Part shown: piece after piece, positions 4,911 to 63,374 of the stretch
How positions within the stretch are numbered: the first letter of the stretch is position 1
How the letters are laid out: each line of letters starts with the position of its first letter
Source: Porphyromonas macacae DSM 20710 = JCM 13914
GTDB taxonomy: Bacteria > Bacteroidota > Bacteroidia > Bacteroidales > Porphyromonadaceae
Reading direction: 5' to 3'
NCBI RefSeq assembly: GCF_000379945.1
Contig: NZ_KB904124.1
Span: forward strand, 62,001-126,000
DNA: 64,000 nt
Translations under genes and position numbers: made by a program
The notes under the pieces: model-generated
Seen by the model: only the letters and a program-made list of their open reading frames with translations
Told to the model about the DNA's origin: nothing
Databases searched by the model: none

Positions 4911-5014
4911 AAACTCTTTAACATTGCAGGACGAAAAAAACATTTATAACGGCTTTCTGCACTTAAAGTTTTTTGAAAATGCGCCGATATGATTTTTATA
5001 ACAATATGATTAGA

Positions 5015-5668
5015 ATGAACATGAAAAAGAGAACATTACTGACCACGCTTTTTCTATTGATATTAAGCGTAGGTGTAGCCAATGCTCAATTGAGCGATTG
5101 GCGTTTTCGCGTAGATGCATCAGTGAATTTTAGCAAAGGAGATTATAAAATTGAAAAGGTTAACGATTTGACAACAAAAGCTATTGTGGGTTACCGCATC
5201 GGCGGTGCTGTCAATATTCCTTTTTCATCCATGTTTTATTTCGCCCCCGGAATTACATTCCTCTCCAAGGGTAGTAACACAACGATTAAAGATCGGGATT
5301 TCGGCGACGTAAAAACACGTACTCATCATATCGAGATACCTCTGCACCTAGGTTTGCGTGTGCCCATTGGCGAAACGCTGGCCTTTAATGTGCAATTCGG
5401 TCCTTATTTGTCTTATGCTATCGCCGGTACGGCAAAAACGGACAATAATAAGGATATCGATATCTTCAAAGACGGTATTAAAGACATGTGGAAGGAGAAG
5501 CGTTTCGACGTAGGCCTTGGTGCGGCAGCCATGGTGGACATCAATAAAATTTATGTTTTGCTGGGTGCAGACTTCGGTATGCTGGATCAGGCTAAGAGTT
5601 TGGCAAAAGACAAAGAGACAACGCTTAAAAACACCTCATTCCATTTGGGTCTGGGCTATCGCTTCTAA
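5015..5668 (+). CDS. PorT-like outer-membrane beta-barrel protein, copy 3 of 3
   Basis: About 217 residues from ATG 5015 (MNMKKRTLL); 5021 is an equal alternative, and the longer frame from 4973 adds a non-signal N-terminus. A signal peptide ends VANA before Q. Repeated barrel features match copies 1 and 2: VGYRIGGAVNIPF, FYFAPGITFLSKG, IPLHLGLRVPIG, VQFGPYLSYA, terminal GLGYRF. A hairpin terminator follows 29 bases after the stop and closes the triplet. No enzymatic motif; the family is known as small outer-membrane barrels, and the individual role cannot be read from sequence. Confidence 0.85.
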   Translation: MNMKKRTLLTTLFLLILSVGVANAQLSDWRFRVDASVNFSKGDYKIEKVNDLTTKAIVGYRIGGAVNIPFSSMFYFAPGITFLSKGSNTTIKDRDFGDVKTRTHHIEIPLHLGLRVPIGETLAFNVQFGPYLSYAIAGTAKTDNNKDIDIFKDGIKDMWKEKRFDVGLGAAAMVDINKIYVLLGADFGMLDQAKSLAKDKETTLKNTSFHLGLGYRF

Positions 5669-5695
5669 AATTCTCTTAAAAATCGAAAAATAACG

Positions 5696-5861
5696 GGGGC
5701 TGTGTCAAAATTCATTTGGCACAGCCCTTTTTTAGATGTGTCAGAATAGGTAAAGTACAAGGTGCCAAGACTGAGGCTGAAGGGAAGAGCATACTGAAGT
5801 GCGTGACCGAAGCCGAATGTCGCAGGGAGCGCAGTAGTTTGCGCATGATGACACGCCGTCT
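5696..5861 (-). repeat. Dispersed repeat R1, copy A
   Basis: Read on the minus strand, this stretch matches 46534-46690 on the plus strand block by block: CATCATGCGCAAA, ACATTCGGCTTCGGTCACG, CAGTATGCTC, CAGTCTT, TGTACTTTAC, ATTCTGA, CTAAA, GGGCTGTG, separated by diverged bases. Small frames inside it are not shared between the copies, so it is treated as non-coding. Its outer end is a hairpin made of the same inverted ends seen in the element at 46663-46839. Confidence 0.75.
5697..5733 (+). terminator. Hairpin terminator after the barrel triplet
   Basis: GGGCTGTGTCAAA at 5697-5709 pairs with TTTGGCACAGCCC at 5715-5727 (one G-T pair, five-base loop), followed by six T. It is shaped like an intrinsic terminator and also forms one end of repeat R1. 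Confidence 0.75.
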
Positions 5862-8590: not shown

Positions 8591-8690
8591 AAAAAAGTTC
8601 TGCCTGACGGTTGAAAATTCTTCAGGCAAAGAATAAAAATCCAAGTTAACTTGGATAAAAATTCTTCAGGCAGACAATTTTCCATTGTCC
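8591..8690 (+). repeat. Dispersed palindromic repeat R2, copy 1
   Basis: TCTGCCTGA at 8599-8607 and its inverse TCAGGCAGA at 8666-8674 enclose ATCCAAGTTAACTTGGAT, a perfect 18-base palindrome at 8639-8656. The phrase GGTTGAAAATTCTTCAGG and the following GCAAAGAA are shared with the copies near 18.9 and 63.1 kb. The whole stretch could fold into one long hairpin. No coding content. Confidence 0.8.
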
Positions 8691-18839: not shown

Positions 18840-18917
18840 ATCAACCGCAGGCGATTATTTGCAATATTTCCGTTTTTTCTCCGGAAGAGAGGCCGGAAAA
18901 TGCTTGCCTGTGCGTTG

Positions 18918-19040
18918 AAAATTCTCTGCCTGACGGATAAAAATCCGTAGCGCTACGGATTTTCAACGAAGTTAACTTGGATTTTTTTTCTTTGCCTGAA
19001 GAATTTTCAACCATCAGGCAGAGAATTTTTCAGTACACGT
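18918..19040 (-). repeat. Dispersed palindromic repeat R2, copy 2 (fullest copy)
   Basis: Perfect 16-base inverted ends: AAAATTCTCTGCCTGA at 18918-18933 and its inverse at 19014-19029. Inside lies a perfect 24-base palindrome at 18940-18963 centred on AGCGCT, followed by the GTTAACTTGGAT segment. Read on the minus strand it is identical over about 83 bases to the copy at 63133. It contains no gene. Confidence 0.85.
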
Positions 19041-46533: not shown

Positions 46534-46690
46534 GACGTTGTCTCATCATGCGCAAATGACTGAGTTGCTCGCCACCACATTCGGCTTCGGTCACGTACTT
46601 TTCAGTATGCTCTCTTGAGCCCCAGTCTTACCGCTGTGTACTTTACGCATTCTGAAGCACCTAAAGGGGGCTGTGTCAAAACATGGAATT
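46534..46690 (+). repeat. Dispersed repeat R1, copy B
   Basis: Shares ordered blocks with the minus strand of 5696-5861: CATCATGCGCAAA, ACATTCGGCTTCGGTCACG, CAGTATGCTC, CAGTCTT, TGTACTTTAC, ATTCTGA, CTAAA, GGGCTGTG. In both copies the right end runs into the same IS-like inverted end. Divergence between blocks suggests an old repeat. Confidence 0.75.
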
Positions 46691-46839
46691 GGGAGAACTT
46701 TCCTTTCATATCGATAGTTACCACCCTTTCTAATCAAATAAAACAATCGCTATCATTGAGTTTTAGCTCTTTGATAGCGATTGTTCTTTACAAATGACAG
46801 TTAATTTAGGGAGAATGGAGTTTTGACACATCCCCCTTT
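46663..46839 (+). mobile_element. 177-base element with terminal inverted repeats (MITE-like)
   Basis: Left end AAAGGGGGCTGTGTCAAAAC (46663-46682) and right end GTTTTGACACATCCCCCTTT (46820-46839) are inverted repeats matching at 19 of 20 positions. Inside, a perfect 14-base-pair stem (AACAATCGCTATCA at 46742-46755 and its inverse at 46772-46785) forms a hairpin. No transposase coding capacity. The ends resemble those of IS elements from this phylum. No clear target duplication is visible. Confidence 0.75.
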
Positions 46840-46871: not shown

Positions 46872-48110
46872 TTATCTAACCGTGATCTTCAATACCTTTT
46901 TTACTGCAGGCACGGGGAATTTATTCCCAACCTTTGCAACAGGTATACTTTCTACTTGTGGCGTTCCTCCAAAAAGAGCCTGAGCATTGCCCGCTCCGGG
47001 GAATTGATCCACTCCCGTTCCCGAATCGAACAGTGCGGCACTTTCTGTAATATCACCGGTCAAAGAGGCAGCAACTTCTTTTTCATTTGCATAGAACCAG
47101 TCATTCGAGAATCCGAACATTGTGGCATAAGCAATTTTGTCGCCCTTTTCCACCTTATACTGTGTCATAACCTTTTGACCGGGACCAACAGGAGCACTAC
47201 CGGCCAGATATACACCTTTTACTCCTTTCATTTCCTTAAGGCTCTTCATCAGTTTGCTTGCATCCCCTTTCTGTGAAAGTTCTTTCAAGCCCATTCCGGG
47301 ATCTTTTTTACCCAGTTCGTATATCGGATTCTTATCCCCCTGATAAGTAACCACCAATACGGGAGAAAGTCCGGTGATAATACCGGTATTGGCCTCTACC
47401 TGAGCTTTCAGTTTGTTTATATCACCCATTTGAGCAATATCGGTAATTTCAGGATTGGACTTCTCTCCCGGAGTAAAAAAGGGGTTTTCGGCAAGCAGTT
47501 TGTTTCCGTCGAATGTGGAAACAGCCCAAACACCCGGAGAAAATGGAGTTTCATGTCCGGTACCGTCTGAGGTATTCGTAATCGTGAGGGTAAACTCAGA
47601 AGAAGATTCCATGTATGCCAGCATCACCTTCATCAGCTTAGAAGCGTCAACTCCTTTAACTTCGGCAATCGGCTTGGATTCGGCAGCTCCTGTTTTGTCA
47701 TCTTTCGTACCATTATCCCACAATTTCATCTGGGCCGAAACATCTCCTGTCATAGCTTTTCCTTTGTCATCGAAAAGTCTAATGCCCGGCTGTTCGGAGG
47801 CAAAGAACCAGTCTTTAGATTTGCCGTACATCGTAGCAAACATCAACCGTTGTCCCTTACCTGCACTGAACTTAAAGTCAACACTCTGTCCCGGCAGGAT
47901 AACCGGAAGATTCACCTCTTTACTGCCTTTTCCAAGGAAAGAACCACTCTCCACAAATAGTTTCGGAGCAACGATATTCTCAATTGTAATCGTGTGCATC
48001 CCTTCTTTACTCTTGGGCATATTCTTTTCATCTTTGGAACAAGAGGAGAACAGTGTCGCTGCGGCCAATAAAACAGTAGACATTACAGCTTTTGATCGAT
48101 AAATTTTCAT
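46872..48110 (-). CDS. Spondin-domain lipoprotein
   Basis: 412 residues. A lipoprotein signal peptide ends in LFSSC (Cys24), followed by SKDEK, an acidic stretch like the surface-export signal of Bacteroidota lipoproteins. The rest matches Spondin_N: FLGKGSKEVNLPVILPGQ, ATMYGKSKDWFFASEQPGI with LFDDKGKAMTGDVSAQMKLWDNG, and FSPGVWAVSTF. A second set (ATMFGFSNDWFYA, SLTGDITESAALFDSGT) shows a duplicated domain. Spondin-like bacterial proteins are of unknown function and probably bind ligands or metal at the surface. It is the last gene of the sigma-factor operon, 20 bases after msrAB. Confidence 0.85.
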   Translation of the reverse strand: MKIYRSKAVMSTVLLAAATLFSSCSKDEKNMPKSKEGMHTITIENIVAPKLFVESGSFLGKGSKEVNLPVILPGQSVDFKFSAGKGQRLMFATMYGKSKDWFFASEQPGIRLFDDKGKAMTGDVSAQMKLWDNGTKDDKTGAAESKPIAEVKGVDASKLMKVMLAYMESSSEFTLTITNTSDGTGHETPFSPGVWAVSTFDGNKLLAENPFFTPGEKSNPEITDIAQMGDINKLKAQVEANTGIITGLSPVLVVTYQGDKNPIYELGKKDPGMGLKELSQKGDASKLMKSLKEMKGVKGVYLAGSAPVGPGQKVMTQYKVEKGDKIAYATMFGFSNDWFYANEKEVAASLTGDITESAALFDSGTGVDQFPGAGNAQALFGGTPQVESIPVAKVGNKFPVPAVKKVLKITVR

Positions 48111-63001: not shown

Positions 63002-63132
63002 ACGATATAAGTTTTATTGTATAAATGTAAACATATTAACCCTCTTGTCCAAAAGCAAAAAAGTCCGATACCGATGCCGGGTCCGGTATCGAGTGCAACA
63101 CCGTTGTAAATTTAGAGCAAAACGCAAAAATT

Positions 63133-63230
63133 GTGACGTGTACTGAAAAATTCTCTGCCTGATGGTTGAAAATTCTTCAGGCAAAGAAAAAAAATCCAAG
63201 TTAACTTCGTTGAAAATCCATTGCGCTAAG
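63133..63230 (+). repeat. Dispersed palindromic repeat R2, copy 3 (one arm missing)
   Basis: Identical over about 83 bases to the reverse strand of the copy at 18918-19040, from GTGACGTGTACTG through GTTAACTTCGTTGAAA. After that it lacks the palindromic right arm and goes directly to the final AATTTTCAAC, so it is an internal-deletion form. Confidence 0.85.
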
Positions 63231-63374
63231 AATTTTCAACCCACAGATAGCGGTTTTATCCACACCTCGACAAAATTTCCCAACGACCTCAAGAATGGGA
63301 CGAAGCCATCGATTATCAATCAATAAAAAGATTCAAAGGAATGGGGCTTTTTCGTTTCTTTACAATTCACAAAA

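Follow-up and report, generated by a model that had tools for sequence, protein, structure and literature searches.

Probable replacement of a terminator-like repeat hairpin by a non-autonomous IS1182-type element in Porphyromonas macacae

IS1272 is a member of the IS1182 family and moves by stem-loop replacing transposition, the evidence for which, in the portions of the sources drawn on here, comes from staphylococci (PMC5678879, PMC4923244). According to the same portions, the insertion targets of IS1272 and TnSha1 are hairpins, in many cases terminators, which are deleted partly or wholly; no target duplication arises, and one plasmid terminator was entered in both orientations (PMC4923244, PMC5678879). 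Repeated palindromes also serve as landing sites for IS elements that target REP sequences, as far as the part of PMC1525189 considered describes them. In Porphyromonas gingivalis, MITE239, MITE464/PgRS, MITE700, and BrickBuilt are short, intergenic, noncoding repeats without a transposase (PMC4596501), a description that also fits the repeat examined here, R1.

The DNA analyzed (hereafter, the window) is a 64,000-nucleotide stretch of P. macacae DSM 20710 = JCM 13914 (contig NZ_KB904124.1, positions 62,001 to 126,000) with two copies of R1, designated A and B. Set beside IS1272 and TnSha1, within the limits of the partial accounts cited, this genome offers an IS1182-type transposase, hairpin targets that appear to have been lost, no target duplication (for a short element, M), and occupancy in both orientations. 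In contrast to those systems, a non-autonomous element (M) also occupies hairpin sites and each end of the IS is a 35-bp hairpin in its own right. While the targets of IS1272 are described as having no common sequence, the target here is the end of a repeat, homologous to the IS end. Moreover, replacement by IS1272 and TnSha1 was established by comparing strains that carry the element with strains that lack it, whereas here replacement is inferred. Unlike the REP palindromes, as portrayed in the part of PMC1525189 considered, the palindrome in this case would be gone after arrival of the element and is homologous to the element's own ends. R1 and M differ from the P. gingivalis MITEs in having IS1182-type rather than IS5-type ends, and carry none of the ends given in Table 2 of PMC4596501; GAGACTGTTGCA ends like those of MITE464 occur on R1 relatives in P. 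uenonis and P. levii. A literature search by titles and abstracts, covering few subscription papers, returned nothing on IS1182-type MITEs or on R1 in Porphyromonas; one paper, PMC10470040, contains both "IS1182" and "Porphyromonas".

The R1 repeat family and its terminal hairpin

The R1 head of copy A (locus L047), an imperfect palindrome delineated by repeat search and alignment, lies unoccupied on the minus strand at 5734 to 5860. It adjoins a 35-bp terminal hairpin of the sequence found at the IS ends (5695 to 5733, plus strand), which begins past CTAAA, has a 5-base loop and a predicted energy of −23.7 kcal/mol (z = −4.38; equaled by 0 of 200 shuffles), and is followed on the plus strand by a run of six T. 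About 27 bases separate the hairpin from the stop codon of an open reading frame on the plus strand (4973 to 5668), the 3′ end of which points towards it and which encodes an outer-membrane beta-barrel-like protein (NF049866, 60 bits, under the cut-off of 135). The hairpin thus looks able to terminate transcription of that gene, as predicted from its structure. In copy B (locus L048), the head occupies 46534 to 46665 on the plus strand, the usual hairpin is missing, and the same kind of ends past CTAAA enclose 137 bases (46683 to 46819). These belong to M (46666 to 46836, plus strand), which was recognized by repeat search and by its IS1182-type ends, GGGGG(C)TGTGTCAAAAC ... GTTTTGACACATCCCCC; its far end is some 35 bases from the 3′ end of a gene with a Spondin domain match (46872 to 48110, minus strand). 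An assembly artefact at copy B was rejected, because the locus is internal to a contig of 668 kb and M turns up on many contigs. Identity between the aligned R1 blocks of A and B is 76.8%, and a genome-wide search with copy B recovered copy A (E = 1.9e-23). The shared blocks, the inverted ends past CTAAA, and the terminator hairpin (as a prediction) of a preliminary description all held up. Rfam had no match anywhere in the window.

Copies A and B are members of a dispersed repeat with a head of approximately 130 bp, which in this genome begins with GACGGTGTGTCA and ends with the IS1182-type hairpin. Among the 40 distinct heads read in this genome, 29 are followed by a hairpin (24 by script label and 5 assigned by eye), six by M, three by an IS end, and two are broken; the junction with an IS1182-type end falls at an identical position in all 38 intact heads. 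A head profile search, in which 90 candidates per genome were scored across 38 genomes of the family, gave 41 matches in this genome and detected the head in 31 of the 38, while the exact core pattern was found in at least 108 DNA stretches from named genomes, nearly all of them Porphyromonas. Two loci of genus mates, compared in 300-base blocks, matched records of P. circumdentaria and Porphyromonas sp. COT-290 with full identity (7 of 7 and 10 of 10 blocks, respectively), in keeping with placement of the window in Porphyromonas. Searching this genome for an exact hairpin pattern gave 17 occurrences, compared to none for a reversed-pattern control, and whole or partial R1 heads accompany 11 of the 14 exact hairpins outside the IS. 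The hairpin is also next after the head at most related-species loci with a readable R1 end, where its arm sequences often differ yet still pair. Based on the codon-bias gene calls made in this study, which were used for the neighbors of R1, M, and the IS alike, the hairpin end of R1 is towards the 3′ end of a gene at 19 of the 25 places with both neighbors called (27 rows examined).

The outer stem of the head comprises 20 pairs, which are paired in 84.9% of cells as compared to 26 to 48% when slid, with changes on both sides in nine pairs; this stem was picked by eye from the same alignment that then supported it, and RNAalifold returned no consensus fold for the head alignment. Most R1 hairpins reproduce both the difference between outer and inner arm (TGTGTC versus GGCACA) and the polarity of a single IS end; the hairpin resembles one whole IS end with its two arms and not two ends fused. 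Counting G-U pairs by strand in the hairpins gave an asymmetry that was left unused, as it rests on one inherited position. The left end of R1 also bears a likeness to the IS end: in the form found in relatives, 15 of 20 positions match (1 of 100,000 shuffles was as good), and in the form of this genome 12 of 20 (118 of 100,000 shuffles), the register having been set by eye in both comparisons. Outside R1, copy-specific inverted repeats received no support (p = 0.35; 14 of the 20 solo R1 rows, with L028 and L039 excluded beforehand and four more failing the anchors of the script).

Assignment of R1 to the MITE464/BrickBuilt group was considered and rejected, since IS5-type ends (GAGACTGTTGCA and the like) are not present on R1 in this genome. 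In other named Porphyromonas genomes (L092 to L171), the R1 core ATTCGGCTTCGGTCACRTAC also lies within elements with IS5-type ends, GAGACTGTTGCA ... TGCAACAGTCTC, at 53 of 82 places; a recognizable right end was found in 49 of these 53, and a 5-bp direct repeat borders 25 of the 47 tested. Two kinds of mobile-element ends are thus attached to one R1 core. The IS5-type form occurs outside Porphyromonas on a contig of Hallella bergensis (L108, 676 to 695), by transfer or contamination. The window also contains three copies of another repeat (8591 to 8682, 18917 to 19008, and 63132 to 63257), whose interior includes short repeated motifs, for example TTCAGGCA, and which we take to be reminiscent of BrickBuilt.

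An IS1182-family insertion sequence and element M

Transposase sequence was detected at contig ends, adjoining some of the hairpins, with nine PF13751 matches in this genome, each near a contig end. A C-terminal fragment scores 44.7 bits against PF13751 (cut-off 25.1), and its best match is NF033551 (44.7 bits over 42 amino acids, under the whole-protein cut-off of 270); a 49-amino-acid N-terminal fragment had no match. Twenty occurrences of the IS left end were found in this genome. At 20 left and 10 right junctions, the element starts with GGGGCTGTGTCAAAA and continues into an inverted half, so that each IS end forms a 35-bp hairpin; the G run of one truncated copy carries two changes. The terminal inverted repeat GGGGCTGTGTCAAAA is common to this IS and to six full copies in a genus mate (G025), which encode a 561-amino-acid transposase (NF033551, 468.7 bits, cut-off 270) and whose ends, GGGGCTGTGTCAAAAGTC, are not hairpins. 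Judged by these sequence matches to the IS1182-type DDE transposase, the IS is assigned to the IS1182 family. The expectations of the preliminary description that the R1-associated ends were IS-like, and that a transposase element with the same ends could be found, were thereby borne out by the 30 junctions and the transposase fragments. The pattern GTGTCAAAAC alone retrieved mostly M ends and no IS-sized pair in this genome, because the IS ends read CAAAAT. No complete copy is readable on one contig in this genome, the sole copy inside a contig (L326) being truncated; with copies collapsed at contig ends, none is seen with both flanks. An R1 head adjoins three of the 30 junctions (two left and one right), and the nearest outside gene has its 3′ end towards the IS in 16 of 27 cases (30 ends examined, three without a called gene). 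A different and very abundant IS is present in another genus mate, G006, where PF13751 matched 42 times on contig 1, for the most part within 368-amino-acid open frames.

M is approximately 170 bp long and dispersed separately from R1 in about 20 copies, mostly 91 to 96% identical to the one in the window, with 146 to 149 bases between anchors in the 18 measured. Its outer end sequence is shared with the IS, its interior is too short for a transposase, and its many near-identical copies mark it, by sequence, as an IS1182-type MITE. No R1 is found alongside 12 of the 18 measured copies; among the six located at R1, both orientations are represented (four and two). Convergent genes flank M at 13 of the 18 places with both neighbors called (20 rows examined), against a background of 5 of the 31 intergenic regions of the window. 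Target duplication was not detected at M (p = 0.40 versus shuffled pairs, 18 copies). The heads beside the six M copies do not exceed random sets of six from 26 heads in mutual similarity (0.772 versus 0.800, p = 0.945), and the six joins therefore look independent. M copies are approximately 93% alike and R1 heads approximately 80%, suggesting that M spread more recently.

An internal hairpin of M, AACAATCGCTATCA ... TGATAGCGATTGTT (46742 to 46785), identified by folding and copy comparison, is strong in the fold. Its pairing is kept across species despite changes in both arms (L064, L065, L076, L079, and L082), one arm varying from CAATCGCTATCA to CAACCGCCATCA with matching partners, so that it seems to be maintained as a structure. 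In addition, a shared sequence (TATTGCTGTCCGGTAAAAAATCGAAG...) splits one M copy and one R1 head (L026 and L340) and probably represents another mobile element.

Proposed hairpin replacement and its alternatives

M and the IS stand exactly at the position of the R1 hairpin, between hairpin foot and flank, with no second hairpin left over. This anatomy fits the prediction from IS1272-type elements, and M probably replaced the hairpin of copy B by stem-loop replacing transposition, the IS1182-family IS being the likely mover. R1 would then be a dispersed non-autonomous element with an imperfect-palindromic head and a 35-bp IS1182-type hairpin at one end, often just past a gene and terminator-like there, copy A being an unfilled landing site and copy B a filled one. 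In copy B, stem and loop would have been exchanged for M, likewise non-autonomous and sharing the outer ends, and at three other R1 copies the full IS, whose transposase likely moves M, would have taken the place of the hairpin. On arrival, the target hairpin would be removed and the element joined to the hairpin feet without target duplication; since the element brings its own hairpins along, a terminator-like structure would stay in place.

The comparison underlying this proposal is between paralogous R1 copies, 29 with the hairpin and nine with M or the IS instead; an orthologous empty site was not found, the two loci tried lacking synteny in relatives, and replacement is read from paralogs for want of a before-and-after pair at one site. 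With only partial deletion of the target stem, complementarity would be expected to persist between the flanks of solo M copies, and the tests for this were negative or weak: complementarity was not detected in the outer flanks of 12 solo copies (p = 0.47), and a wider flank window gave p = 0.01 for these 12 and p = 0.22 for all 18, with three partial stretches skipped. By eye, no obvious hairpin target accompanies the six full IS copies in G025. Two solo M copies (L018 and L021) have a common repeated left flank that resembles an inverted repeat (CTCCTTTCTTTGT...ACGAAAGAAAGGAG, by eye), and the persistence of this sequence beside M speaks against replacement.

The preliminary description had envisaged that an element like copy B lost its interior and that its ends, brought together, formed the copy A hairpin. 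The hairpin halves do resemble M ends, and a deletion between the two ATGGA repeats of M, as read by eye from the copies, would give a similar hairpin. This explanation is nevertheless very improbable: most R1 hairpins have the arm difference and polarity of a single IS end, the M-specific CATGGA loop is absent from all 29 hairpins read, the hairpin is the majority state and extends to related species and to genomes without matched M, and the relative similarities of M copies and R1 heads place the spread of M later. Neither loss of an interior between the two copies nor identity of the copy B interior with the element of copy A is supported, given the six independent-looking joins and the dispersal of M by itself. 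What stands of the proposed gain or loss is that hairpins were apparently replaced by M independently; M's interior at no time belonged to R1. Likewise, ends without R1, which had been named as evidence against any link, do account for most M and IS ends, but every intact head has such an end. Mere chance likeness between unrelated terminators and repeats has practically no probability; short G+C-rich hairpins past genes are common across bacteria, but this explanation is refuted by the reversed-pattern control, by the adjacency of all intact heads to such an end together with the 30 IS junctions of the same sequence, and by the z-score of the copy A fold.

Two further explanations concern how the parts were joined. 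The 15-bp arms held in common could have allowed homologous recombination or gene conversion, with the R1 hairpin loop giving way to the interior of either M or the IS, given that the hairpin arms and the M and IS ends are nearly the same sequence and that conversion on both arms would yield an exact loop replacement. This exchange is considered unlikely, as the arms are very short for such events, one would have to assume nine independent joins that involve two kinds of element and both of their ends, and the 12 solo M copies require transposition anyway. Alternatively, the R1 head might be the mobile part, inserting at the foot of IS1182-type ends, whether of a hairpin, M, or the IS, which would explain the missing hairpin at M and IS copies and the two orientations of M with no deletion at all. 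Such insertion is quite improbable, however, because nearly all hairpins bear R1 (11 of 14 exact ones outside the IS) as compared to 6 of 38 M ends and 3 of 30 IS junctions, suggesting that head and hairpin act as one unit, and because the two recur jointly in related species.

Implications for mobile elements and terminators in Porphyromonas

The class of mechanism proposed here, replacement of a hairpin by an arriving element, is already known; new are the non-autonomous occupant, the palindromic IS ends, and a repeat family as landing pad. As a tentative extension, hairpin-replacing IS1182 elements and R1 may constitute a self-renewing system, in which R1 disseminates terminator hairpins that duplicate the IS end, the IS and M, its small derivative, land by taking the place of these hairpins, and hairpins persist after every landing; terminators would in this way be traded for mobile elements at little cost to neighboring genes. 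With 29 unfilled and nine filled hairpins of one repeat family in one Porphyromonas genome, the model is directly testable, and the set includes autonomous and non-autonomous occupants and both orientations. The findings suggest a route by which mobile elements may spread at terminators with little harm, and they call for caution in this genus, where hairpins taken for terminators may be IS ends.
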